The translations under genes and the position numbers were made by a program. Source: a virus. Taken from it: DNA of 38,228 nucleotides. Positions 10,186-38,051 of the stretch are shown in pieces. The notes below the pieces were generated by a model. That model worked only from the letters and a program-made list of their open reading frames with translations. It searched no databases and was not told where the DNA came from. The number at the start of each line of letters is the position of its first letter. The stretch's first letter is position 1. Where the stretch lies: the IMG/VR virus record IMGVR_UViG_3300034198_020126, positions 1-38,228 of that record; one strand, given 5' to 3'.

Positions 10186-10908
10186 TCAGGCGATCATGGC
10201 CTTTTCTAGCTCGGCTATTTCGTGATCGATCTGAGCTTGGGCACCTTCGGCGGCGAGTTGGATCAGGTCCCAGTCAGCAGGCAATAGCCCCTCGTCCTTG
10301 GGTAGAGTGACCTCATGCTTGCCCCAGAAATAGACCACGCGCTTGGGCTTGGTGGTCGTGGTCTCCGCCTTGCGGGCGCGGGTTGCGGTGATGGGTTTAC
10401 GCGGGCCGATGAGGGCGGCACGGCCCGTGTCGGTCTTGGGTTTGTCGCGCAGGAACCATGCGGCCAGGCCTTCCTTCAGCTTCACAAAGTCCAGCATCCC
10501 AGGGAAGTTCAGCGGGCTCTTGTTGTAGCTGTTCTTGTGGCATGGAATCGCCAGCCAAGTGCCACGCTGCACCCGCACGCGCACGGGTCCCCACGTCCGC
10601 GCAAAGATGCCGCTGCTGTTGTTGATCGTCACCTCTGCCCCGCGCCGCGTGCCAGTCGCTTCGATGTTCTGCGCCGCCTGTTCTAGGTAGCCACTGCGCT
10701 GCGCTCCCAGCCTGTCCGCCGTCTTGTGGCGCGTCCGGCTGGCGTTCGTGATATGCTTCTGAATGCCGATTACACTACCACCGTTCACCATCACCTGCGC
10801 CATGGACTCATGCAGTTGCGAAGGATCATCCACCAGCTCACGAGCACGCTCAAGCAGAGCGAGGAACTGCGCATCGTTCTCCATCAAAAGCTCAACAATC
10901 GCAGGCAT
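10186..10908 (-). CDS. Putative tail completion / virion morphogenesis protein
   Basis: This 240-aa protein has a helical N-terminus (MPAIVELLMENDAQFLALLE) and a basic middle (SRTRHKTADRLGAQRSGYLE). The segment VTINNSSGIFARTWGPVRVR resembles the beta region of gpG/HK97-gp10-type proteins. The C-terminus is Lys/Thr-rich, then acidic helical. It overlaps the upstream gene at its start and is followed by the tail terminator, the expected order head-connector, neck, tail terminator. The family assignment is tentative. Confidence 0.5.
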   Translation of the reverse strand: MPAIVELLMENDAQFLALLERARELVDDPSQLHESMAQVMVNGGSVIGIQKHITNASRTRHKTADRLGAQRSGYLEQAAQNIEATGTRRGAEVTINNSSGIFARTWGPVRVRVQRGTWLAIPCHKNSYNKSPLNFPGMLDFVKLKEGLAAWFLRDKPKTDTGRAALIGPRKPITATRARKAETTTTKPKRVVYFWGKHEVTLPKDEGLLPADWDLIQLAAEGAQAQIDHEIAELEKAMIA

Positions 10909-11852
10909 CAGTTCTGCCCTCCTTGCTTGTCGCGTTTGATGAACTTGCCCAGGTCCGCACTGAGTGCGCGCAGCTTGTTGAGCTTAATCAGCATCGCCTG
11001 CTTCACCTGCGGGTCCAGCGTCTTGATACCCTTCACATCCGGCAACGGCGCAGCCCTCCACTCCCCCTTACCCCTTTTCTCTTTTCCCTTTTCTCTTCCC
11101 CCAATTTCCACTTTCAACTTCAACGCTTCCGCCTTGCTCACCGCCACCCACCCAAAGCCCGAGCGAATGCAGAACGGCGGATAATCCACGCCAAGAGCCA
11201 AGTCATTGATGCCCAGCCGCTCCAGCTCCGCCTGGCTGCCGAGCTTCCCCCAAATCTCATCATCCAGCCCCGCGATCATCCGCAGCTTGCCTGCGTCATC
11301 CGTGAGCTTCGCGCCCATCTTGATCCAGCGCTCCGCCCAGCCCGGCGAGCCGCTGTCAATGCTGCCGCGTGGCTGCTGCCGTGTCTCCAGCCGCACCAGT
11401 TCCCGAGCGGGGAAGAGCCGACGTGCCACCGGCGTTTCGCTGTTCAGCTTCTGCGCCTGCCCATTGGCCAAAGCGCGCTCAGTGTTGAAGACCAGCTCCA
11501 GCCGCTTCCACGAGCTGAGGTCTTGGAGCGAGCCCGCTTCCGCTGATGGCACACCCTTCGCCGCATCCCCTGGAAAGCCCGTTTCAGGCGTGTATCCAAG
11601 CCGTTGCAACGTCTCTTTCAAGAACGCGATGCCCTGCGCCTTTGACCGCCCCAGTTCGCCCGCCATGAAGCCCTCTACTGCCCGCTTCACCTCCGAAAGG
11701 AAGCGCGCATTCGTCACCCGCGCCAGCACCAGCACGCGGCGGCGAAGCTCCCCGACAAACCGCTCCTGCAACGCCGCCGACCCCAACGCACTCGGGATCA
11801 TCCCGCGTTCGCGGGCGATCTTCAGAGCGGTGGTGAATTGGGTGGGGGTCAT
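10908..11852 (-). CDS. Putative minor head (gpF/SPP1 gp7-like) protein
   Basis: About 314 aa from ATG 11850-11852. The frame runs further upstream, but only through a TTTCCAC leader repeat. The helical N-terminus (MTPTQFTTALKIARERGMIP, RVTNARFLSEVKRAVEGFM) and the segment WKRLELVFNTERALANGQAQ resemble head-morphogenesis proteins. A downstream stretch (DYPPFCIRSGFGWVAVSKAE) is also compatible. Residues around 250-270 (KVEIGGREKGKEKRGKGEW) are translated from the dispersed leader repeat, so non-coding repeat has been captured in frame. It precedes the gp10-like gene with a one-codon overlap. Confidence 0.45.
   Translation of the reverse strand: MTPTQFTTALKIARERGMIPSALGSAALQERFVGELRRRVLVLARVTNARFLSEVKRAVEGFMAGELGRSKAQGIAFLKETLQRLGYTPETGFPGDAAKGVPSAEAGSLQDLSSWKRLELVFNTERALANGQAQKLNSETPVARRLFPARELVRLETRQQPRGSIDSGSPGWAERWIKMGAKLTDDAGKLRMIAGLDDEIWGKLGSQAELERLGINDLALGVDYPPFCIRSGFGWVAVSKAEALKLKVEIGGREKGKEKRGKGEWRAAPLPDVKGIKTLDPQVKQAMLIKLNKLRALSADLGKFIKRDKQGGQN
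11062..11122. repeat. Dispersed pyrimidine leader repeat embedded inside a gene
   Basis: The plus strand reads CTTACCCCTTTTCTCTTTTC and then CCCAATTTCCACTTTCAACT, the same composition and words found in intergenic leaders at 23450-23485, 30490-30525 and 31100-31137. Here it lies entirely within the coding region of 10908-11852, read on the other strand without a stop. Confidence 0.8.
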
Positions 11853-11892
11853 GGGGGAAAAGCGGAAAGTGGAAAGCGGAAAGTGGAAAAGG
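11853..11892. repeat. GCGGAAAGTGGAAA leader repeat
   Basis: GGAAAAGCGGAAAGTGGAAA and the following GCGGAAAGTGGAAAAGG lie between two leftward genes. On the coding strand this is a TTTCCACTTTCCGC leader immediately before the ATG at 11852. Confidence 0.9.
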
Positions 11893-11896
11893 TGAC

Positions 11897-12106
11897 TCAG
11901 GCGATGCGCTCGCAAAGCACGAGGTGCTCGTCTCGAATGGGTGTGATGCGTTTCACCAGCCAGCGGCCTGGCAAGACGCTCTGTTCGCTCTCGCCACGAA
12001 TCGGCGTCCAGTCGGTGATGATCTTGCCCACGGCATAGAGGCTGCGGAAGACCGTCTTAAACTCGCGCAGCGTGCCAATGGGAAAGGTGTCAGCGGATGG
12101 GATCAT
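11897..12106 (-). CDS. Small conserved-position head-tail gene, 69 aa
   Basis: The product is compact and beta-rich (MIPSADTFPIGTLREFKTVF, GRWLVKRITPIRDEHLVLCE). The start overlaps the previous stop as ATGA, which argues that it is a real gene coupled to the gp36-like gene. The length and sequence (an early FPIGTL, a late DEHLVLCERI) would suit a small head-tail joining barrel protein. No firm family match. Confidence 0.6.
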   Translation of the reverse strand: MIPSADTFPIGTLREFKTVFRSLYAVGKIITDWTPIRGESEQSVLPGRWLVKRITPIRDEHLVLCERIA

Positions 12107-12731: not shown

Positions 12732-13811
12732 TTAGTTGGTGTAAGTGACCGGCAGCTTGAAGATGCCCAGCGAGCTGGTCTTCACGATGCGGCTGGCGTG
12801 CCACACGGTGATCTCGGTGTAGCGGGCCTTTTCTTCCACGAACACGACAAACGAGGAACCGGCGCTCACATCGACGAAGCGCTTGATGTTGCTCGGGTCT
12901 TCCGGCGTCGTGCCTGCGGCATAGTAGCCATAGACCACATCCGTGATGATCTTGGCCTTGGCCGATGCAGTGGACTGGCGGCGAAGGTTGACGTTCAGCA
13001 CGGTGTCCACCTCATACTCGGCGGCCAGGTCTTCCGGCGAGACGATGTAGTCCAGCGTGCTGCCCGCGTTCTTCATTGCACGGTAAGCCTTCTTGCGCTT
13101 CAGCGATGCACCACCACCGAAGACGACGAGGTTGCTGTTGATGCCGCGCAGGTCACCCTTGGAATCAAGCAAGGTGATGATGCTTCCATCAGGATCACGC
13201 GCTGTGTTGGCTGCGCCCCAGTTCTCCGAGGTCTCAGCACTCAGCCCGTCATCCAGCGTGTTGAACACACGGCGGATTTCCGTGCGCAGCAGGATGTTCT
13301 TGGCGCGCTGCACCTGAGCCTGGCGCACGGCTGGCAGGTTGCCACCCATGCGATGATCAATGCAGATGGTCACGCCCTTCTCATCCACCGAGCCATCGGC
13401 CCTGGTCTTGCCCGTGCCCAGTTTGGGGAAGTCGCCACCCGTGGCACGGATGTCGGCATCGCCATTGAGCAGGTCAATCCATTCTTCCTTCTCGTTGTGG
13501 ATGAAGTATTGGAAGCTCATTGCCCCAGGCACCACAGGGGCCAGGGTATCGAGCACCTGTTGCAGATTGCCCTCGCCAGGGTAGCCCACGGCGAAGTTGG
13601 TCAGCGGTTGGTCCAGGGTGACCAGCCCCGCTTCGTTGTCGCGGCTGGTGATCTTGTTGCCCGCATCATCGACAATCTCGTTGTCGATATTGCGGATGGC
13701 GTTGAACCCACTGGCCCGGCTCTCGCCGCGCTGCGGCTGAAGGTTGGGGTTGGCACGGGTGATGGTGATGCCGCCTTCAAAGCGGCCCGTGTAGATTGGT
13801 AGCTCTTTCAT
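12732..13811 (-). CDS. Major capsid protein
   Basis: This 359-aa soluble protein lies between the decoration-protein gene and the connector genes. It is of typical size for an HK97-fold capsid. The N-terminal arm (MKELPIYTGRFEGGITITRA) is followed by alpha/beta sequence with GLVTLDQPLTNFAVGYPGEG, a helical DHRMGGNLPAVRQAQVQRAK segment and a C-terminal VVYGYYAAGTTPEDPSNIKR region. There is no signal peptide, in contrast with several neighbours. Position and composition make this the best capsid candidate. Confidence 0.7.
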   Translation of the reverse strand: MKELPIYTGRFEGGITITRANPNLQPQRGESRASGFNAIRNIDNEIVDDAGNKITSRDNEAGLVTLDQPLTNFAVGYPGEGNLQQVLDTLAPVVPGAMSFQYFIHNEKEEWIDLLNGDADIRATGGDFPKLGTGKTRADGSVDEKGVTICIDHRMGGNLPAVRQAQVQRAKNILLRTEIRRVFNTLDDGLSAETSENWGAANTARDPDGSIITLLDSKGDLRGINSNLVVFGGGASLKRKKAYRAMKNAGSTLDYIVSPEDLAAEYEVDTVLNVNLRRQSTASAKAKIITDVVYGYYAAGTTPEDPSNIKRFVDVSAGSSFVVFVEEKARYTEITVWHASRIVKTSSLGIFKLPVTYTN

Positions 13812-14561: not shown

Positions 14562-15872
14562 TTATAGGCCTGTGGCACTCATGCCGAAGGTTTCGTTGTA
14601 GGCCTGAGTGAAGGCCAAATCCGTGCGCATTCCTTGTGCTTCCAGCTCACGCTGGCGCTTGGCTACGGCGGCGTGTTTGGCACTGCGGCTGCGCTGATCA
14701 CCCACGATCTCATTGTGGATAGTGTGCAGGCGCATCTGCGCAGCGGCACCGCTCATGATGGAGGTGGTCTTGTAGCGCTGCGGGCGGGCCATCAGCTTGG
14801 CGAAGGCGGCATCGACGGCCTCCGCTGTCTCTGCGGCCATGATCGCGGCGGCTTCATTCTCCCTCTCCGCGAGTGTAATGCGGCCCGTCACCACGGCTGC
14901 ATGGACGGCATGAGTGGCCAGGGCCTTGGCGCGAGCGCTGTGCTTTCCCCGCTCCGCTTCCAGCGTGCTGGTGTGTTCGTTGTCAGCCTCGCGCAGCGTG
15001 GTGATGGTCGCTTCGTTATTGGCAATGGTGGTCGTGAGCGATAGCACCTTCGCCTGTTCATCGGCCAGCTGCTGGCGATACGCTGCCACATCGGCGCGCA
15101 TCCGGTTAATCTCTGCCTCCCGGCTGGCAATCGCAGCGGTGACCTGGTCCATCGTGGCATCAGGCTCCAGGTAGAGCTTGCTGCGCAAGTCACGCATCCA
15201 CTGTTTGGCTTCGTTGTCCTGGTCAATGACCGGCTCACCGTCGTTCTCTTCTGGAAGTGTCTCCGCACTGCGCTGCTGGTCTTCGTTGTGCAGCTCCACG
15301 CCGGGAATGTTCGGCATGTTGGTCAGGCCAAAGGAAGTCAGCGCAAAGGGGAAACTCTCGTTGTCCTTGTCCCGTGCAATCCATGAAGGCGAGCCGCTGA
15401 TGAAAGCGCCGTCTTCGATCAGCTTGCGGCCATCGGGTGTGGGCTCCATGACAAACTCGGCCTCGTTGTCGCGCACATTGACGTCCGTGATCCATCCGTA
15501 GCTGCGTTTGTCAGCGCTTTTGTCCTTGGAGCTGGCGGCATAGGGGTGGCCGATGAAGACCGGGCGCTTGCCAAGGGCGCGGTGCAGGCCGTGGTTCATC
15601 ACGCTCTTGACCCAGGCCGTGGGGCTTCCTTGAATGAGGCCTTTCATCATCGTGGCCGCTTCGCGGTTGAAGACCTGCATCACCTTCGGGCTCTGCGCGT
15701 CGGGGTATCGGCCATAGGGCACGGTGAAGGATGCAGGCTTCACGGTGGCAATGCCTTCATTCTCCACATCGCGCAGCAGGGCCTCATTGTGCCGGGTGAG
15801 CAGCCGTGGCGTGCGGAACATCGTTTGCATGGCGCTGATGAGGGCGAAGAGGATCAGTTTCAGGGGCTTCAT
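14562..15872 (-). CDS. Mu I-like prohead protease/scaffold
   Basis: The ATG at 15870-15872 gives 436 aa. Residues about 35-190 match the Mu-like I protease (FTVPYGRYPDAQSPKVMQVF, RPVFIGHPYA, SYGWITDVNVRDNEAEFVME, ISGSPSWIAR, FGLTNMPNIPGVEL). The rest is a long coiled-coil scaffold (LYLEPDATMDQVTAAIASRE onward) with a basic C-terminus. It should process and template the prohead. The first 16 residues (MKPLKLILFALISAMQ) form a hydrophobic leader not expected in this family. It directly precedes the decoration and capsid genes, as in Mu. Confidence 0.75.
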   Translation of the reverse strand: MKPLKLILFALISAMQTMFRTPRLLTRHNEALLRDVENEGIATVKPASFTVPYGRYPDAQSPKVMQVFNREAATMMKGLIQGSPTAWVKSVMNHGLHRALGKRPVFIGHPYAASSKDKSADKRSYGWITDVNVRDNEAEFVMEPTPDGRKLIEDGAFISGSPSWIARDKDNESFPFALTSFGLTNMPNIPGVELHNEDQQRSAETLPEENDGEPVIDQDNEAKQWMRDLRSKLYLEPDATMDQVTAAIASREAEINRMRADVAAYRQQLADEQAKVLSLTTTIANNEATITTLREADNEHTSTLEAERGKHSARAKALATHAVHAAVVTGRITLAERENEAAAIMAAETAEAVDAAFAKLMARPQRYKTTSIMSGAAAQMRLHTIHNEIVGDQRSRSAKHAAVAKRQRELEAQGMRTDLAFTQAYNETFGMSATGL

Positions 15873-15903
15873 GGGATCGTGTTGGGTGGGTGTGCTTGGT
15901 GAA

Positions 15904-16332
15904 TCAGTTACTGGGCTCAGTCGTGGCAATGGCTTCGGTGAGCAGCTCGCTGACTTGCTCTTGGGTCATGCCCAGCCCCTCAAAGAAGCTGGCGGCATAG
16001 GCCTGCATCAGGGCGGCCTCCAGGTTGCCGCCGTTGTTCAATGTCGTTTCAATGACGGCGGGCCAGTCGATTTCAATGACTTCGCCACCGCGTTGCAAGG
16101 CCGTTTCAAAGGCATTGATAACGGGCTTTAAATCCATCTGCACCGCCGTGCGAACGCTGGATGTGCTGGGTTGCATTGAGGCATTGCTCGCAGCTTTGGT
16201 GTCCACATCTGCTTCATCATCAGGCGTCTCGTGATGCAATGACTGCCAGTCGGGTGCGCTGCTGAAGGTCACGTCATCAAAGATGGTGGAAGCCATGCGC
16301 TCCTCATCGGTGATTTCAAAGTCGTCTTTCAT
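15904..16332 (-). CDS. Small acidic protein downstream of portal, unknown
   Basis: This 142-aa protein has an acidic, disordered N-terminal half (MKDDFEITDEERMASTIFDD) and a helical C-terminal half (LKPVINAFETALQRGGEVIE, LGMTQEQVSELLTEAIATTE). The C-terminal half resembles the helical tail that ends DUF935-type portals. It overlaps the portal-fusion stop with ATGA. Because the portal's own C-terminus is occupied by a topoisomerase domain, this may be the displaced portal tail or a partner protein; this is inference. Confidence 0.5.
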   Translation of the reverse strand: MKDDFEITDEERMASTIFDDVTFSSAPDWQSLHHETPDDEADVDTKAASNASMQPSTSSVRTAVQMDLKPVINAFETALQRGGEVIEIDWPAVIETTLNNGGNLEAALMQAYAASFFEGLGMTQEQVSELLTEAIATTEPSN

Positions 16333-18497
16333 CGTGCCGCCTCCTTTGCCCTGCTCATCACGCCGCGCTCCACATCGGCGAAGACGAGCGGGTGAATGTA
16401 GTTGTTGAGCGCCATGCTCGCGCCGTTGCCCAGGTCACGCGCCACGATGCCCGCCACTCGCTTCTTAAAGCTCTTGAGTTCCTTCTCGGTCTTGGGCCGC
16501 TCACCGCGCTCAATGAGCTTCTTGGTAATCACATCGGCGTTCGTAGTGCCATACCAGGTGCGCATGTCGTGAACCTTGAATTTGTCGCCGCTGATCTTCT
16601 TCATGTAGCCGAGCGTTTCATCCGCACTGCCATCGAAGATCGTCTCGTTGCCCATGCGCTGCCGCATCGCGATGTGCTTCGCTAGAATCTTGTCGTTGAA
16701 GCTGTGCCGCTGGCGAATGCCTTCCTTGCCGACGAAATCGAGATGCACCTTGTCTCCGTCCACGCGGGCGTGACTGCTGAGCAGCGATGAGGCCCCATAG
16801 GCTTTCACATCACCGCCGCCGCCTTCGCCGCCATTGCGCAGGCCGGTTTTGCTGATCAGCCGCAGTGTGAGTGCCTGGTGCAGGTCATCACCAGCGAGCG
16901 CGATGTCTTCATTGATCTGCTCGCGCAGTTTGGGCATCGCTTTATGGAGCGCGCCGATGCGGGCAAACTTCGCGGCGGCCTGTGATTCCGAATAGGCATC
17001 GCTGTAACCATACTTGCGGCGGCCCTTGTCATCGCGCGCCGTCCACAAAAGATCAGCGCTCGGATCGTCGGTGACTTCAATGTCTTTGAAGGCTGGGGCG
17101 ATGCCGAACTTCTTGCGATCTTCATCGGTGCCTTTGCGCATCGTGCCGCGCTTCGCGTCCGTGCCTTTGCCGCTGCTGCCCTTCTCGGCAAACTTGCCGG
17201 TGATGTCACGCGGGTGAAGGTCTGGATCAAACGCGTTATTATGCTCCACGGTTGGCTTCGTTTGCTTCACATCAGGCTCTTTAGCGGTCGCCTCAATGAG
17301 TGTCTCGGCCTTTGATGGCAACGAATGGGCATATTTCTCAGCCAGACCTTCCTGGGAGAACGGCACACCCTGCCCAATCAGGAAGGTGTCCTTTTGAATT
17401 TCGATCACATCATCTCGGCGCGCTGGCACCTTCAGCTTGAACCAAGCTTGCGGTTGCACGCCTTCCCCGAAAATCTGCGCAATGGCATTTCGCACTAGGC
17501 GGCGGTTGATCGTGTCTTCCACGAAGCGGGCGCTGTTCTCGACGCGGTCGGCGGTGTCGTTGGCTTGCAGGCTTGCGCCCTGCTGATTGTGCTCGGAGCT
17601 GGTGCCGAGATTGCTACCCAGCGCGAGGATGTAGATGGCTTTGCGCATGTCATCGCGCAACGGCTGGAACATGGCGTTGCCCGTCGCGTGCGCGCCAATC
17701 TCGTTAATCTTGGAGCCTGGGCCGGTGATGATGCGGAACCGTGCAGGCAGGTAGGCAAGAGCGGATTCAATCGCGTTCCATTCTTCCGTTCCGGTGCCTT
17801 GGGCTGACTCGGCATGAATGCCCGGCAGACCGAAGCCGCTGTTGTATTCCAGAAGATCCTTGAGGGTGAGGCTGGCAATCATGTGCGCCACTGCCATGCC
17901 CACGCCCAGCGTGCCACCGACCGCGATCAGCCAGTTCTCTTCATCTAGTGGCACACCGCCAACGCCGCCCGAGGGACCGCAGTAGCGCAGCGGCCCGCTG
18001 GCGTTTTCAAAGCAGGCAATCGGCGCGTGCCAGAGCTGGCAAGTCAGCCCGCCATCACCCGGCTGCCAGACGATTTCATGCACATCATAACGCAGCACTT
18101 CAGCGCGCAGGATGTTGTTCACCAGGGCGCGCACCTCGCCGCGATCTTCGGGGATCACTGCATTGCGCACCGTGAGATTCTCGAACAGGAATTGCAGCGC
18201 GGCCTGGTGCCGTTTGGCTTCATTGTCATCCAGGGCCGTCTTGCTGCGGACAATTTCATAGTCTAGGGCGGAAACCGAAGCCCGGCGCTTGGGCACTACA
18301 GCGGCAATGTCCATGTTCGCGCCTTCTTCCAAGCGATCAAAGATCAACGCAAACCGGCGCAGGTAGCCCAGCTCAAACTCATTGATCGCTTGCGTCATGC
18401 CCGAGGGCACCAGACCCGCCAGCGGGTTGCCGCGAGTGATGCGCCACGCTTGCGCGATGGAGGCCTTAGCAATGGAAGGTATCTCGGTGAGTGTCAT
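16329..18497 (-). CDS. Portal (DUF935/gp29-like) fused to type IB topoisomerase domain
   Basis: This 722-aa protein has two parts. Residues 1-410 are a Mu gp29-type portal (YLRRFALIFDRLEEGANMDI, EVLRYDVHEIVWQPGDGG, LTLKDLLEYNSGFGLPG). A linker carries LHPRDITGKFAEKG (about 427-440), a motif typical of fused phage virion proteins. Residues about 465-715 are a type IB topoisomerase catalytic domain: RDDKGRRKYGYSDAY, R554 in SKTGLRNGG, K591 in DFVGKEG, R646 in HDMRTWYGT, N691 and nucleophile Y700 in NNYIHPLVF. Spacings R-K 37, K-R 55 and N-Y 9 fit viral and bacterial TopIB enzymes. It overlaps its downstream neighbour by ATGA. The domain may relieve torsion during packaging or ejection; this is inference. 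Confidence 0.85.
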   Translation of the reverse strand: MTLTEIPSIAKASIAQAWRITRGNPLAGLVPSGMTQAINEFELGYLRRFALIFDRLEEGANMDIAAVVPKRRASVSALDYEIVRSKTALDDNEAKRHQAALQFLFENLTVRNAVIPEDRGEVRALVNNILRAEVLRYDVHEIVWQPGDGGLTCQLWHAPIACFENASGPLRYCGPSGGVGGVPLDEENWLIAVGGTLGVGMAVAHMIASLTLKDLLEYNSGFGLPGIHAESAQGTGTEEWNAIESALAYLPARFRIITGPGSKINEIGAHATGNAMFQPLRDDMRKAIYILALGSNLGTSSEHNQQGASLQANDTADRVENSARFVEDTINRRLVRNAIAQIFGEGVQPQAWFKLKVPARRDDVIEIQKDTFLIGQGVPFSQEGLAEKYAHSLPSKAETLIEATAKEPDVKQTKPTVEHNNAFDPDLHPRDITGKFAEKGSSGKGTDAKRGTMRKGTDEDRKKFGIAPAFKDIEVTDDPSADLLWTARDDKGRRKYGYSDAYSESQAAAKFARIGALHKAMPKLREQINEDIALAGDDLHQALTLRLISKTGLRNGGEGGGGDVKAYGASSLLSSHARVDGDKVHLDFVGKEGIRQRHSFNDKILAKHIAMRQRMGNETIFDGSADETLGYMKKISGDKFKVHDMRTWYGTTNADVITKKLIERGERPKTEKELKSFKKRVAGIVARDLGNGASMALNNYIHPLVFADVERGVMSRAKEAAR

Positions 18498-18503
18498 ATC
18501 TCG

Positions 18504-20222
18504 TTAGGCTCCCATTGAAAAACCCATCCGCTCCGCCAGCCGCCCGAACATGCCGCCCTGCGCAGCGCGCTGCTTCGGTGCCGTGGCATGAATGATCTTG
18601 CAGCCGCCTTGCAAGGCCGTGCCCGCCGCCCGCACCATCAGCGCGGCACTGGTGCAGCCATCACTATGGCCTTCGTCGGAGCGTGGGGCCTTGTAGTTGT
18701 ATTGGCCATTGGTGATCACTTGGGCCATCGAATGAAGATCCTCGCGGAACCATTGGCTGATGGGCACGCGGATGTTGCGCTTATCGAAAGCAAGGCGAAG
18801 CGCGGGGAAGATTTCGCGCTTCAATGGAAGCGTGAAGGTGCACAGTTCCACCTTGCCAAAGAGATGCTTCACCGGGTCATGCTCGCCATAGAGCCTGGCC
18901 AGCTCGTCACCAAAGCCGATGCCGGGGCCGGTGTAGTCCACCACGATGCGGTCGCAAAGATCGAGGTGGGGCTTGAGCGTGCGGACCTGGTCCGGTGTGC
19001 TCATGCCTTTGAGCCGCGTCACGTTGCGCACGATATTGATGCCCAGGCCATTGAGTGCCAGAGTCATCACCGTGGGATCGCTCACGCGACCGAAGTCGAT
19101 GCCTGCCACCTTGCGCAGGGGCGACTGCGCGAGCATCTCGGGCGTGTCGTGCTCGCTGGCTTCCATGCTCTCGCAGCTGGCAATCAGCTCATAGGGCAGC
19201 AGCACGTTGTAACCGTCCAGCCACTCGCAGAGGAACTCTTGCGCCCAGCCTTCGGGATCATCGAGCAAGGCTTCCAGCTTGAGCGGGTTCTGCTTGATGC
19301 CCATCAGCACCGCCTGCCAGATGTTGATAACGCGGGAAGACCAGAGCCCGCTGGTGTCATGCACATACTTATAAGAGGGCGCATTTTTGCCGTTGGGCGT
19401 GGTGATGTAGCGCACCACTTTCTTGCCTGCCTCTTCATTGGCGACCAGGCCGAGCACGGCCTTCATGAACTCCTTGGGATTGTCCACATGGTCACCCTCA
19501 TCAATCACGAGGTTGGCCGTATCGCCGCGCAGTGTCTGCGGCAGGCCGGGCACACCGCGAATGATCGAGCGGTTGCGCAGGGTGATCTTGGTGGAGGTGA
19601 TGAGCGCCTGGGGATGACTGCCATCACGTTCGGTCTCGACTTCGGCGAACTCTTCATCCCAGGCCTCGACCACGTCCTTCACCTTATCGAGCGTGAGCAG
19701 GCTTTGGCGTTCAGAGGGCGAGGTGATCGTCCATCGCGTGAGCGGATGGGCATAGCACTCGGTGCCTACTTTGAGACCAATGACAAAGCCCTTGCCGGTC
19801 TGCCGACTCTGCACATCGCAGATAGCCTCGTGCGGATCGTGATAGCTGACGAACTGATATTGCTTCATCAGCGAGCGCACATCGCTCTCAGGATACGGGT
19901 TCACCCAGCCGTTGACGTTCTCGCCATACTTCGCCGTCGCGTGCAGGGCGATGAGGTCAGCCACCGCCATGCGCAGCAGTGAGTTCGGTGCATCCAGCGC
20001 GGCAGTGATGCGGCTCTTGAGCACTGCCCATTTGGCGCTGGCTTCCTTCATCACCTCAGCCGAGGCGCGGGCCTGCTCCGGCGTCACGGGGTTGCCCCGT
20101 AGCCGTTCCATGGCATCCTTCTGGCGGGTGGTCTTCTTCATGGGTTCAGCGGCAGCCGTGGTCATCACCACCGCCATGAGGGTGGTGAGGAGCAGAGCAA
20201 GGGGATGACGGGTGCATGGCAT
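18504..20222 (-). CDS. Terminase large subunit (gp28-like)
   Basis: The motifs are clear, numbered here from an upstream possible start at 20270: Walker A SRQTGKGF at 155-162, Walker B NLVIDEGD at 253-260, a coupling TTP at about 290-292, and nuclease acidic residues in GIDFGRVSDPT (D392), IVVDYTGPG (D445) and the late DEGHSDG. The preferred start is ATG 20220-20222, giving 572 aa beginning MPCTRHPLALLLTTLMAVVM, again a signal-like hydrophobic segment. If that segment is not translated, ATG 20139-20141 (MKKTTRQKD) would be the start. It lies 6 bp before the portal gene. Confidence 0.85.
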   Translation of the reverse strand: MPCTRHPLALLLTTLMAVVMTTAAAEPMKKTTRQKDAMERLRGNPVTPEQARASAEVMKEASAKWAVLKSRITAALDAPNSLLRMAVADLIALHATAKYGENVNGWVNPYPESDVRSLMKQYQFVSYHDPHEAICDVQSRQTGKGFVIGLKVGTECYAHPLTRWTITSPSERQSLLTLDKVKDVVEAWDEEFAEVETERDGSHPQALITSTKITLRNRSIIRGVPGLPQTLRGDTANLVIDEGDHVDNPKEFMKAVLGLVANEEAGKKVVRYITTPNGKNAPSYKYVHDTSGLWSSRVINIWQAVLMGIKQNPLKLEALLDDPEGWAQEFLCEWLDGYNVLLPYELIASCESMEASEHDTPEMLAQSPLRKVAGIDFGRVSDPTVMTLALNGLGINIVRNVTRLKGMSTPDQVRTLKPHLDLCDRIVVDYTGPGIGFGDELARLYGEHDPVKHLFGKVELCTFTLPLKREIFPALRLAFDKRNIRVPISQWFREDLHSMAQVITNGQYNYKAPRSDEGHSDGCTSAALMVRAAGTALQGGCKIIHATAPKQRAAQGGMFGRLAERMGFSMGA

Positions 20223-20374
20223 GGGGGTCGATTGGCAGGGTGGGGGCGGATTCGTTGCAACGTTTTGCAACGGCTTTGCAAGGGGGTAGAAGGGGCCAGG
20301 GGGGCGTTTCGGGTGTCTTGAGTGCGGGAAGGGGGTCTAGGCGCTTCAAATCGGGTTTTCAGTTTTCGGCGTTA
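20223..20374. other. Gap with GTTGCAACG palindrome
   Basis: Between the small and large terminase genes, 20253-20262 is the perfect palindrome CGTTGCAACG. It is followed closely by TTTTGCAACG and CTTTGCAAG. It could be an operator, a pac-related site or chance; nothing else is recognised here. Confidence 0.3.
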
Positions 20375-25532: not shown

Positions 25533-25580
25533 GGCCATGAACAGTGTATTGAACAACCAGCCTTCGTCTAATTCATGAAC
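25533..25580 (+). repeat. Half attC / attI-like region before the integrase
   Basis: GGCCATGAAC (25533-25542) is the R'' of cassette B. A second CATGAAC follows 38 bp later at 25574-25580, spanning the integrase start codon and followed by GCTCAGC, which resembles the GCTGAGC after the R'' of attC2. No partner R' (GTTRRRY) arm is visible. It may be a truncated attC or an unusual attI. Confidence 0.45.
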
Positions 25581-26582
25581 GCTCAGCAGGTCCAACCGCA
25601 CCAGAAACCCGGCCTCGTTGCGGCATTCCGGCGCGTGGCAGCAACGGGCAAGCATGGCGTGCGACCACTGGCGAAGAAGACCGTGGAGACCTACCTCTTT
25701 TGGCTGCACCGCTTTGCCACGTCCACGGGCAAGGGAGCACGGCAGTGGATGGGCGACGATGTGGAGGCGTTCCTGTGGCAGCTGCACCGCGAGCGCTATG
25801 CGCCGAAGTCACGCAAGCAGGCGCTGTGCGCCTTGGTGTTCGTGTTCAAGAACGTCCTCGGCGTCGATGTGGGCACGCTGAACTTGCCCGCTATGCCAAA
25901 GGAACAACCCACGATTAAGATCATCCCGTCACGCGGTGAGATCGCTCGCATTTTTGCCGGGCTGCGCGGGCAGGCGCGAGTGATGGCGGGGCTGCTGTAT
26001 GGCTCGGGCCTGCGCGTCAATGAATGCTGTATGCTGCGGGTGAAGGATGTTGACTTTGAGTCGATGACCATCCGCGTGCATGAGGGCAAGGGGAACAAAG
26101 ATCGCCTGTGCCTGTTGCCGGTGAATCTGGTGGATGCCTTGCAGCGGCAGATTGGCTGGAGGGCGGCACTGCATGAGACGGACCTCAACCAAGGCGCTGG
26201 GTATGTGGAGATACCGGGCCGCATGGCGATCAAGGATAAGGGCGCAGCGCGGGATCTGCGCTGGCAGTTCCTCTTTGCCTCTGCTGCGGTGCGTGGGGTC
26301 TATCGCTGGCACACCACGCCCGAAATGATTCAGGGCTCGCTACGCAAAGCCGTGAAGGCGGCGGGCATTCTGAAGCGAGTAACCCCGCACACTCTGCGGC
26401 ACGCCTACTGCACGCACTCCATCCAGGCCGGTGTGGACGTGCCCACCGTGCAGGCCTTGATGGGACACGATGACATGGAGACAACCCAAGGCTATGCCCA
26501 CGCTGATAAGGCGCGGGGGTTCTCGCCTCTGGATGTGACTGAGCGTGTTGTCGTTCACTCACCCTTGGCCTGGGCCTCATGA
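25575..26582 (+). CDS. intI: Integron-type tyrosine recombinase (IntI-like)
   Basis: This 335-aa protein has all the catalytic residues: R147 in YGSGLRVNE, K172 in HEGKGNKDR, H272 and R275 in TPHTLRHAY, H298 in LMGHDD and Y307 in TTQGYAHAD. The extra segment between about 208 and 250 (GYVEIPGRMAIKDKGAARDL, RWQFLFASA, YRWHTTPEM) is the feature that separates integron integrases from XerC/D. The C-terminus FSPLDVT also matches IntI proteins. It reads in the same direction as the cassettes and lies at their far end, unlike classical integrons. Confidence 0.9.
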   Translation: MNAQQVQPHQKPGLVAAFRRVAATGKHGVRPLAKKTVETYLFWLHRFATSTGKGARQWMGDDVEAFLWQLHRERYAPKSRKQALCALVFVFKNVLGVDVGTLNLPAMPKEQPTIKIIPSRGEIARIFAGLRGQARVMAGLLYGSGLRVNECCMLRVKDVDFESMTIRVHEGKGNKDRLCLLPVNLVDALQRQIGWRAALHETDLNQGAGYVEIPGRMAIKDKGAARDLRWQFLFASAAVRGVYRWHTTPEMIQGSLRKAVKAAGILKRVTPHTLRHAYCTHSIQAGVDVPTVQALMGHDDMETTQGYAHADKARGFSPLDVTERVVVHSPLAWAS

Positions 26583-34815: not shown

Positions 34816-36996
34816 ATGACCAAAGCCCTCGCCATCACCTCTGACTTGCCCCTGCCTCTCACGGACGACGAACGCCGTGCATTGAGTAATCGCCAGCGCA
34901 CGAAGTTGGCTCGCGACGTGGCGATGTGTAAGGCGGTGGCGGAGCTGCTGCGCACTGGGGCGGTGAAGTCGAAAGAAATGGCCTTCTCCAAGGTGTGGAG
35001 TGATACGGGCGTGGGCTCGTTCATGTCGCTGAAACGGAAGTTCAACGCCTGGGCAAAGGGCGGCGAGCGGGCGATCATAGATCACGCGATGTGCGGGACG
35101 GTGAGCTGTGGCTTTCCTGAGTGTGGCAACCGCGACCGGGCCTCGCTCCTGCCCACGGAAGTGCTGTCCTACTGGGTGCAGCTGGTGGCGAGCAACACGT
35201 CTCTGCAACGCAAGGGTGTGCGCTCGCAGCGATGGGGCTATAATGAGCTGTGGAACCGGCTGGCAAAGGGGGAAATCATCCCCGGCTATGGCGATTGGCG
35301 GCGGGTCTGGCGGGACTCGCATCACGGCGACGAACGCACGCCGGAGACGTGCACGATGAGTGCCGCGCTGCCGCCTCGCGGGTGGACCTTTGGCAATTTC
35401 CTGGCGCAGCGTGATCGTGTGGCTTCGCTGGCGGAAATCGAGGCCGCGCAGCGGGGCCTGGGACAGGTGATCAAATCGCTGCCGATGGTGCGCCGTGACT
35501 GGGGCGCGCTACGCATCGGCGAGGCACTGTTCATTGATGACTGGCAGCCGGATGTTGAAACGTGGCTGGAGGTGGATGGTGTGCCGCAACTGGTGCGTGC
35601 TGCGGCCCTGGTGATGATGGACGCGGCAACTCGCCGCATCGTGGGCTTTCGCCTGTATCCGCAGTTCCTCCGCAAGGATGGCACGCGGCAGGGAATCGAG
35701 CGCCGCCATGTGCAGCATTTGATCGCTCACTACCTGGCCACCGTGGGCGTGCCGCGTGGCTATGAGTGCGAGCTGGTGTGTGAGAACGCAACGGCGGCGA
35801 TCACGGATGAATTTGAGACGATTTTGACGCGGCGTTTCCCGAATCTGAACATCCGCCGGCAGGGGCTGCACATTGGCGACGGTGGGGTGATTTCCCGCAT
35901 CGACCACACGGCCAGCAACTCGAACGCGAAGAGCCTCATTGAAGGGTGGTTTAATCGGGTGAATAAAGAGCTGGGTCATGTGCGTGGTCAGCTGGGCAGC
36001 AACTACCTGCTGAAGGCTGCGGATCAGGAGGCTCGTGAACGTCGCGGCGAGCTGGTGATTCGCGCTGTGGGGAGTGTGCTCACGGAGTCGCAATTGACGA
36101 CGCTGATGCCGCTCGATCACTTCGAAGAAACCGTGCAGCACATCGCCGCCGCCGTGCATCGTTTGGAGACGAATTCAGACCATGAAATGCAGGGCTTCCG
36201 CCGCGTGATGAAATGGCGCTACGGGCCGGGGGATTCGGAGTGGAAAAGCATGGGCCACGGGGATCTTCTTTCGATGCGTGAAGAGCTGGGCATGGATGCG
36301 GTGAATAAGTTCCTCCGTGGGGACGGTCGCAGCACCTCGGAAATGGAGACGGTGCGGGAGCGCTGGGCCTCGCTCTATCAGGCGGAAAATTTCGAGCGCC
36401 TGGGGCCTGCGGACTTCTGGTCGATCTGGTGTGATGTGGCCACGGCGAAGGTGTCCGGTGACGGCACGCTGACGGCGAAACTTTCGCGGGGAAGGTCGTT
36501 CGAATTTCACCAGTTCCAAGGCCTGCGCCGACTGGTCACAGGCGAGAAAATCGCGGTGCGTTTCGATGCGGATCATCCGGCGAACGGCTGTGCGCTGCAA
36601 GATGCCGATGGCCGCGTGATTGGCTCGATGAAACTGCGCGAACGCTGGCAGACTGCTGACGAGCTGAACGAGCAACTCGGCGAGAAGATGGCGGCAGAGA
36701 AAACGATGCTGGAACGCCTGGCCCGCGCCCATGGAAATGGTCGCCTCGCTGCCGCTGAACTGAGCGCTGTGCAGTCTCGTGTGAAGACGCTGGAAATGGT
36801 CGGCGAAATTGCCTTGCCACCCGTGGCCGCTGCGAGCGCCGAGGCGGCTGATCTTGAGGCCGAAATGGAGAGCCAAGAAGTGACCCGCCGCGCCTCTCAA
36901 AAGAAGGCCACCACTGCCGCCGAACGCGAGGCCAAAGCCGCCGCCGCTCGCGCTGATTTTCTCGCCGCCCGTAAACTCCAAATCCAACCTGTATGA
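34816..36996 (+). CDS. MuA-like DDE transposase
   Basis: This 726-aa protein has an N-terminal DNA-binding region (residues 1-200, HTH-like, with a Cys cluster CGTVSCGFPECG at about 93-104). The catalytic domain at about 225-400 has D241/D242 in LFIDDWQPDVETW, E323 in LVCENATAAI and E376 in SLIEGWFNRVNKEL. The MuA-type beta barrel follows and then a basic, Ala-rich C-terminal helix for ATPase contact. Spacing 323-376 (53) fits MuA 336-392 (56). Glu at the second position, normally Asp, is unusual. It overlaps the ATPase gene by 4 bp. Confidence 0.9.
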   Translation: MTKALAITSDLPLPLTDDERRALSNRQRTKLARDVAMCKAVAELLRTGAVKSKEMAFSKVWSDTGVGSFMSLKRKFNAWAKGGERAIIDHAMCGTVSCGFPECGNRDRASLLPTEVLSYWVQLVASNTSLQRKGVRSQRWGYNELWNRLAKGEIIPGYGDWRRVWRDSHHGDERTPETCTMSAALPPRGWTFGNFLAQRDRVASLAEIEAAQRGLGQVIKSLPMVRRDWGALRIGEALFIDDWQPDVETWLEVDGVPQLVRAAALVMMDAATRRIVGFRLYPQFLRKDGTRQGIERRHVQHLIAHYLATVGVPRGYECELVCENATAAITDEFETILTRRFPNLNIRRQGLHIGDGGVISRIDHTASNSNAKSLIEGWFNRVNKELGHVRGQLGSNYLLKAADQEARERRGELVIRAVGSVLTESQLTTLMPLDHFEETVQHIAAAVHRLETNSDHEMQGFRRVMKWRYGPGDSEWKSMGHGDLLSMREELGMDAVNKFLRGDGRSTSEMETVRERWASLYQAENFERLGPADFWSIWCDVATAKVSGDGTLTAKLSRGRSFEFHQFQGLRRLVTGEKIAVRFDADHPANGCALQDADGRVIGSMKLRERWQTADELNEQLGEKMAAEKTMLERLARAHGNGRLAAAELSAVQSRVKTLEMVGEIALPPVAAASAEAADLEAEMESQEVTRRASQKKATTAAEREAKAAAARADFLAARKLQIQPV

Positions 36997-38051
36997 CTAC
37001 CTCCACAAAGCAAGGATACACCCCCATGACAGACGCGCAGAAAGCGCGTTGTAAGGCCGTTGAAACGGGTTACAAAGCCCTCGATTTTTCACAGGCTCGC
37101 TTCGCTACATTTTCGAAGCTCACCGTGTGGCCGCGCCTGAACGCTGGCACTTACCGTGCCAACGGGATCGAGGGCAAGGTGCTAGAGGCCGAGCTGGCAC
37201 TTGCCACCCTGCAACGCAATCACAAACGGCGCACGATGGTGGCGGACGCTGAGGCGCGGGTGAAGGCCGTGACGCCGCCCGTGATTCATGAGCTGCCCAC
37301 GTATCGGAATCTGCTGAACGCGGTGGACCAGCTGATCGAGCGCCGGGCCTCGCACCCGCACTCAGAGGAGCGTGGTATCATCGTGACGGCGAGAGCAGGC
37401 CGAGGCAAGACAACCATGGCTCATTTGCTCGTGAAGGACCGGCAGGCGGTGCTCGTCCAGACAGGCCCGTCATGCGGCACCAACTACCGCGCCCCGCTGG
37501 TCGGACTGTGCACCGCCCTCGGCCTGGAAACAACCGGCACGAACTTGGAGCTAGAGCTGCGCATCCGCGCCGAGCTGGTCGAGAATGAGCACGTCATTGT
37601 CTTCCACCAGGGTCTCGACCAGGTCATGAGCAGGCGACTGGTCGGCTTCCTTCTGACCGGTCTTCTGGAGAACACCAAGGCCATCGTGGTGCTGCTAGCC
37701 GTGCCGCATTTCATGGCCCGCCTGCGCAATCAGGCCCGCGCTGCCGCCCATCGCCACGACAAGTCATTCGAGGAGCTGCTAGAGCAGTTCGACCGGCGTT
37801 TCGACCCGCTCGACGCTGGCGACGTGACCCGCGCTGAGGTGGCGCTGTTCCTGCCCGGCCTGCCCGACCCCACGCCCGTGGTCGCCGCCGCCAATGAGTT
37901 CGGAGGCCTTGCCCTGGTCGCGTCCGTGGCCGATGCCCGGCAAGTCGCCGCCACGCTGAGCAAGCCGTTCGATGTGGAGGATTCAATCTCGACGTTCCGC
38001 AGTCGCGAAGAGGGCTATCGCGCCGCCTTGTCCATGCAGTCTGCGGCCTAA
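36993..38051 (+). CDS. MuB-like transposition target ATPase
   Basis: This 352-aa AAA+ protein has a Walker A at residues 133-140 (ARAGRGKT) preceded by EERGIIV. The Walker B region at 201-206 reads VIVFHQ where family members have hhhhDE. The sensor strand is AIVVLLAVPHF. The C-terminal segment FDRRFDPLDAGDVTRAEVAL fits MuB. It should bind target DNA and stimulate the transposase. Its stop is 1 bp from the right terminal repeat. The degenerate Walker B may mean ATP binding with little hydrolysis. Confidence 0.85.
   Translation: MTTSTKQGYTPMTDAQKARCKAVETGYKALDFSQARFATFSKLTVWPRLNAGTYRANGIEGKVLEAELALATLQRNHKRRTMVADAEARVKAVTPPVIHELPTYRNLLNAVDQLIERRASHPHSEERGIIVTARAGRGKTTMAHLLVKDRQAVLVQTGPSCGTNYRAPLVGLCTALGLETTGTNLELELRIRAELVENEHVIVFHQGLDQVMSRRLVGFLLTGLLENTKAIVVLLAVPHFMARLRNQARAAAHRHDKSFEELLEQFDRRFDPLDAGDVTRAEVALFLPGLPDPTPVVAAANEFGGLALVASVADARQVAATLSKPFDVEDSISTFRSREEGYRAALSMQSAA

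Follow-up and report, generated by a model that had tools for sequence, protein, structure and literature searches.

A portal protein fused to a type IB topoisomerase

In the viral record IMGVR_UViG_3300034198_020126 of IMG/VR, analysed over positions 1 to 38,228 (a stretch of 38,228 nucleotides, hereafter the window), a gene directly following that of the terminase large subunit was found to encode a portal protein continued by a type IB topoisomerase (TopIB). It is probable that the product is a portal of the Mu/B3 type bearing at its C terminus a full-length and probably active TopIB, which belongs to a phage-specific family mounted on proteins of the head vertex. A preceding inspection of the letters alone (the sequence-only reading) had claimed a portal fused to a complete TopIB, without giving the strand. 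The fusion was confirmed as real, since both Pfam domains lie in one intact open reading frame (ORF) of 722 residues on the minus strand, with the following parts:

16329..18497, minus strand: portal-TopIB fusion ORF, 722 residues, ATG start, single reading frame
17331..18314, minus strand: portal domain, residues 62-389, PF06074 Portal_Mu; the full-length model matches the JBD30 and Mu portals
17160..17318, minus strand: predicted disordered linker, residues 394-446, with HPRDITGKF at 428-436
16329..17117, minus strand: bilobal type IB topoisomerase, approximately residues 461-722, with the pentad R554, K591, R646, N691 and Y700

No internal stop was found in the minus-strand ORF at 16329-18497, and the plus strand over the same span is interrupted by stops. 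Pfam searches matched residues 62-389 to Portal_Mu (PF06074, E 3.4e-32, 112.5 bits against a cut-off of 23.9) and residues 505-689 to Topoisom_I (PF01028, E 8.4e-17, 61.7 bits against a cut-off of 23.7), whereas no NCBIfam model matched the protein. The GC content was 0.596 in the portal part versus 0.597 in the TopIB part. Among PDB sequences, the top phmmer match was the TopIB of Deinococcus radiodurans (E 5.9e-19, fusion residues 463-707), and this alignment paired R554, K591, R646, N691 and Y700 with the active-site positions of that enzyme, in agreement with the catalytic set named by the sequence-only reading. The D. radiodurans residues are R137, K174, R239, N280 and Y289, and the spacings in the fusion (R-K 37 and N-Y 9) equal those of the D. 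radiodurans enzyme. The protein thus combines a virion structural domain and an enzymatic domain in one polypeptide and in a packaging context, as in polyvalent proteins and virion effector fusions. An internal start yielding free TopIB was also considered; Met453 is kept in the related locus L005 (see below), yet no Shine-Dalgarno-like sequence precedes it, and such a start is unsupported.

Predicted structures

AlphaFold2 was run on the 287 C-terminal residues with 68 aligned sequences, that of the window included, and gave a model with a mean predicted local distance difference test (pLDDT) of 93.8 and a predicted template modelling score (pTM) of 0.88. The best PDB matches found by Foldseek were the TopIBs of D. 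radiodurans, variola virus and human, and VIA-align gave Z scores of 22.7 (3m4a), 21.2 (2f4q) and 20.8 (2h7f). The alignment with the variola enzyme (2h7f) extended over 258 residues (model residues 16..282) including the N-terminal clamp domain, i.e. both lobes of the fold. Tyrosine recombinases belong to the same catalytic superfamily, and Xer and Cre structures reached Z scores of up to 15.0, the best being an Xer recombinase. That the domain is a recombinase and not a topoisomerase is nevertheless very improbable: TopIB structures scored 17-23, the alignments with the poxvirus and human ones also took in the N-terminal clamp domain, and PF01028 was matched while PF00589 (Phage_integrase) was not among the Pfam matches at E up to 1.

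The full-length model, with a mean pLDDT of 77.9 and a pTM of 0.45, contained low-confidence stretches in the portal part, and pLDDT fell below 50 at residues 394-446, between the two domains. Because this pTM is low, the placement of the portal relative to the TopIB domain is not predicted. The full-length model matched the JBD30 portal (8rka_A, E 6.9e-13) and the Mu neck (9knu_A, E 6.0e-10, and 9khx_M), as well as TopIB structures in the PDB, so that the structure prediction that had been proposed for both parts ended with matches to portal and TopIB structures.

Related topoisomerases in other viral contigs

To begin with the closest relatives, a search with an alignment of the TopIBs of the window and D. 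radiodurans recovered two viral contigs. One (L005; such numbers are our handles for loci) is an independent contig encoding a Mu-type portal, linker and TopIB in the same order as in the window, the TopIB being 60% identical, whereas the other (L006) carries a portal of a different family (Phage_portal_3) followed by a TopIB 35% identical to that of the window. Between portal and TopIB, the L006 protein (L006:3099-5756) has a rubrerythrin/ferritin-like segment (PF02915, E 2.6e-8). Wider alignments yielded first 19 loci and then 176 relatives in viral contigs, the best 80 of which were examined and the other 96 left out. These 80, the extra loci of the 19-locus search and one prophage-like locus (L096) made up 89 loci, or 81 after removal of domains at least 95% identical; L007-L009 were excluded from all counts of relatives.

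Stop codons were absent from the TopIB domains of all 89 loci. With the window included, R554, R646 and Y700 were conserved in 82 of 82 sequences and K591 and N691 in 81 each (exceptions L082 and L029), the five residues occurring together in 80 of the 82; the loss of catalytic residues in relatives, named by the sequence-only reading as a refuting condition, was confined to these two exceptions. The fusion was seen in a single metagenomic contig, and two adjacent genes could in principle have been joined wrongly by assembly or annotation. This is exceedingly improbable, as the same portal-linker-TopIB order is repeated in the independent contig L005, similar fusions to other portal families recur, and a continuous frame through the linker is also found elsewhere.

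No tblastn match to the TopIB or the portal of the window was found in 50,697 phage isolate records. The TopIBs of L006, L017 and L070 matched 3, 2 and 6 such records, respectively, all at low identity, and no portal fusion was seen in the three inspected (L007-L009). Phages of the jumbo group (NCTB, PaBG, Lu11 and others) encode a topoisomerase I of the tyrosine-recombinase type (PMC7824862). These are also phage TopIBs but divergent; the NCTB product matched PF01028 only, with no portal domain in Pfam, and the available text of PMC7824862 does not report a virion fusion. It was observed that the TopIB-like proteins of L008 (LR745208.1) and L009 (phage NCTB) have His at the fourth catalytic position versus Asn in the virion-fused family.

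In genome contigs, one TopIB alignment matched none and another matched only L096, in a metagenome-assembled genome of Gammaproteobacteria. There TopIB has a gene of its own, bearing the linker at the N terminus and located after a gene resembling MuF with an intein, as judged by eye (L096:3920-5725). An intein signal (PF14890), below its cut-off, was also present in the MuF-TopIB ORF of L080. In addition, phrog_23460, a PHROG without description, matched 67 of 68 phage TopIB domains, though not that of the window itself; this family, for which TopIB is a likely function, could be annotated accordingly.

Carriers, cargo domains and linker

At least 150 residues precede TopIB in 59 of the 81 loci, and 58 of these N-terminal parts were scanned, L071 being omitted because too little of it remained from the first Met onward. 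Counted as sums of Pfam rows at E 1e-3, without a check of each member for overlap, portals were present in 28 of the 58 (Phage_portal_3 in 22, Portal_Mu in 3, Phage_portal in 2 and Phage_portal_2 in 1), so that the viral-database search suggested by the sequence-only reading showed portal-TopIB fusions to be recurrent. P23-45_portal overlaps Portal_Mu in L058 and was hence not added. The non-portal carriers were Phage_Mu_F (MuF, 8) and DUF2213 (1), and PHROGs labelled the N-terminal parts as portal, minor head, head morphogenesis or head maturation protease. Further domains were InPase (5) and 2H (2), with one each of Zeta toxin, ADPrib_exo_Tox, ART-PolyVal, NUDIX, rubrerythrin, GNAT and DUF3626; predicted effectors (InPase, ART, Zeta and NUDIX) thus stand N-terminal to TopIB in some ORFs. 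One ORF of at least 1271 residues, running off the contig end, combines MuF, DUF3626 and TopIB (L025:2280-6092). TopIB was the last domain, with at most 20 residues after it, in 70 of 82 sequences. The slot it occupies is not reserved for it, since the Mu-type portal of a terminase relative (L004:9383-11167) carries there a PBECR2 RNase domain (E 5.9e-8).

The sequence-only reading had also described the RDITGKF stretch as a linker used by virion-fused enzymes. A strict motif, [HQKE]PR-x(2,8)-G-x(0,3)-[KREQ]-[FW], was found within the 110 residues preceding TopIB in 40 of the 80 ORFs with enough sequence, compared with a mean of 0.26 and a maximum of 3 in 200 shuffles and with 7 of 219 more N-terminal 110-residue windows of the same ORFs, which bears out the description. 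A looser form occurred in 57 of the 80 versus a shuffled mean of 2.7. Both forms were composed after inspection of some of the sequences and are therefore descriptive, not predictive. In two multi-domain virion ORFs (L020:1950-5747 and L026:3519-7694) an HPRxxxGxF linker is repeated, with three strict matches each, and looks like a reusable motif for mounting or processing of cargo.

Origin and selection

A tree was built from 94 rows, comprising 82 phage TopIBs and 12 cellular ones, the latter sample being 11 of the 16 loci L103-L118 (the other five were not recovered on the plus strand) plus D. radiodurans, i.e. one class plus D. radiodurans. A split supported at 100/100 separated the phage from the cellular enzymes, and a branch of 0.91 led to the phage group, although the bootstrap had not settled and retrieval by phage-derived profiles favours a tight phage group. 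The window and L005 paired at 100/100, and portal and other carriers were interleaved within the phage part. A profile search of 369 genomes matched 18, the prophage-like one at 357 bits and the best in the other 17 at 91-181 bits. As judged from pairwise comparison of aligned codons, the domain is intact and under purifying selection: the rates of nonsynonymous (dN) and synonymous (dS) substitution, given as dN/dS, were 0.057/1.06 (L074/L081), 0.114/1.36 (L089/L096) and 0.328/1.6 (window/L005), and in further pairs 0.197/1.41 and 0.14/0.49, the ratio being well below 1 wherever dS was measurable. In our reading these enzymes form a TopIB family specific to phages, which is borne as cargo by proteins of the head vertex, within the head, and would act on phage DNA. 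The bacterial and poxvirus TopIBs (D. radiodurans 2f4q/3m4a and variola 2h7f) share the fold, bilobal clamp, pentad and spacing; unlike them, the enzyme of the window lies in a phage-specific clade and is fused to a virion protein.

Possible function of the virion-mounted topoisomerase

Fusions of portals to PBECR, 2H and InPase have been published, and for these domains on portal or MuF carriers injection has been predicted (Iyer et al. 2017, PMC5512222). The polyvalent proteins and the effector fusions of portal or MuF described there resemble the fusion of the window in joining C-terminal enzymatic domains to a virion protein, and several of those domains also occur in the loci collected here; in the main text available, 'topoisomerase' occurs only in a reference title and TopIB cargo is not described. 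The MuF polymorphic toxins (Jamet et al. 2017, PMC5576092) likewise have a variable domain at the C terminus of a head-vertex protein, whose gene adjoins that of the portal. In contrast to those toxins, a DNA swivel is carried here, and by the portal itself; 'topoisomerase' is absent from the available text of PMC5576092, and MuF (PF04233) was absent from the fusion protein of the window in Pfam at E up to 1. No portal-TopIB or MuF-TopIB protein was named in the open PMC literature searched, which is not proof of absence. Effectors fused to portal or MuF are thus already known, and TopIB as such a cargo appears to be new and is widespread in uncultured phages. The occurrence of related TopIBs on many virus head proteins suggests a widespread, overlooked way to carry an enzyme in particles.

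In the mechanism that we propose, phages would mount TopIB via flexible 'HPRxxxGKF...GGG' linkers on portals of several families, on MuF or on DUF2213, or would encode it alongside these proteins. Incorporated into the virion with the portal, up to twelve copies may be located on the lumen side, against the packaged DNA, which would be the target; TopIB would cut one strand via Y700, the duplex would swivel and the strand would be resealed, with no ATP required. The closest solved portal found is that of JBD30 (gp32, 8rka), which, like that of Mu (9knu), shares with the window the portal fold and the position after the terminase large subunit and is without TopIB. It is dodecameric; its crown and wing lie within the capsid, and DNA winds on or above the wing (PMC11445458).

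Our tentative preference is for TopIB as cargo that, once delivered or set free by proteolysis, would act on the incoming DNA (or on that of the host). It is favoured because of the variety of carriers and the company of other predicted effectors: the use of other portals, MuF, DUF2213 and separate genes, together with the unrelated effectors in the same slot, speaks for a cargo of virions in general and against a packaging part specific to the portal. It is somewhat doubtful that TopIB instead stays tethered as a working part of the packaging machine, where a portal-anchored enzyme would relieve torsional stress at the vertex during packaging or exit. Portals are the commonest carrier, the DNA of JBD30 lies against the portal inside the head (PMC11445458), and deficiency of topoisomerase II in T4 impairs the formation of DNA-full heads (PMC10893049, citing Zachary and Black), all in favour of such a swivel; however, TopIBs on MuF, on DUF2213 and in separate genes fit it poorly, as do close portals without TopIB and a slot common to unrelated effectors. 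The sequence-only reading had proposed that the enzyme swivels DNA as it is packed from the integrated chromosome. Packing of this kind is plausible for a Mu/B3-like transposable phage, given the MuB-like gene and the B3 kinship of the terminase, whereas the packaging swivel is not specifically supported and is possible but not favoured.

A released or delivered TopIB might also alter the supercoiling of the host chromosome or otherwise disturb host DNA, like the toxins that share the slot. Zeta toxin, ART, PBECR2 and InPase are among the fusion partners, and the injection predicted in PMC5512222 would agree with this. We regard it as unlikely, since a TopIB works on duplex DNA of any kind and that of the phage is closest at hand, and since the 82 sequences gave no hint that resealing residues had been lost, as they would be in a DNA-breaking toxin. 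Some other role, e.g. action before assembly or mainly DNA binding, is rather unlikely.

Several points weigh against a cargo enzyme mounted on the head vertex. A lumenal C terminus is the general rule for portals and is presumed for the one here. Portals are not known to be ejected, so that delivery would need unproven processing. Fewer than 150 residues precede TopIB in 22 of the 81 loci (the contig end truncating two of these), and fusion is therefore not obligatory; in 11 of these 22 a portal- or MuF-like ORF was located nearby by local profiles, the neighbours of L096 being judged by eye, and in one of the 11 (L051) MuF lies C-terminal to TopIB within one ORF. The four Mu-type portals closest to that of the window (L002, L003, L101 and L102) are without TopIB, which is thus dispensable in the lineage. 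Constraint was weaker in L094/L095 (dN/dS about 0.29), and L019/L021 and L015/L022 were too similar to tell.

It is possible, and we put it forward with reserve, that many uncultured tailed phages carry a dedicated, phage-specific TopIB in the virion, anchored at the DNA gate and setting genome torsion there during packaging, storage or ejection. If true, the virion would have a topological component that has not been described before. The fusion also adds DNA topology to the functions with which phages appear to equip their heads. The build-up of torsion in packaged DNA and its relief are a long-standing question on phage motors, for which a portal-mounted TopIB would be a simple handle, as mutation of one tyrosine would remove the swivel and leave the portal untouched.

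Neighbouring genes and phage type

Further genes of the window were assigned as follows:

18504..20270, minus strand: terminase large subunit (TerL), phrog_2 E 3.4e-25, immediately upstream of the fusion
15904..16332, minus strand: 142-residue gene, its ATG overlapping the stop of the fusion (ATGA)
14562..15929, minus strand: homologue of the Mu-I-type protease/scaffold, downstream of the fusion, L102_prot E 1.8e-10, B23 'I protein' E 8.9e-5
12732..13811, minus strand: major head protein, phrog_1005 E 8.6e-8
34816-36996: 726-residue gene preceding the MuB-like gene, MuA-like by eye only
36993..38051, plus strand: MuB-like DNA transposition protein, phrog_296 E 1.6e-5

A phrog_673 head protein is also encoded downstream of the fusion, together with the major head protein. 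The fusion directly follows TerL in a head operon, the gene order of Mu/B3-type portals, which is the same in B3 and B23. Isolates with a related TerL, at 24-34% identity, include Pseudomonas phage B3 and Alteromonadaceae phage B23, among others. Together with the MuB-like gene and its MuA-like neighbour at the right end, this makes the phage of the window a probable transposable relative of B3 and Mu.

In B3 and B23 the portal is directly followed by Mu gp30/F, whereas in the window and L005 a small, unrelated gene stands in that place. A homologue of the 142-residue gene follows the L005 fusion in the same position (L005:5780-6142; 26.8% identity over 97 residues, E 6e-9), and none was found in the other loci collected by then. 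In both phages having this gene, it translationally overlaps the end of the fusion, and its product may possibly be a partner or regulator of TopIB. That it is the displaced native C-tail of the portal was dropped, the profile comparison giving a probability of 0.23 out of 100. A gene at 10908-11915 is MuF-like by eye; it had no Pfam MuF match and was missed by the B3/B23 gp30/F profile, and no claim is made for it. It was also noticed that a tyrosine integrase (25575-26582, PF00589 E 2.2e-33) coexists with the MuA/MuB-like pair (34816-38051), an unusual combination.

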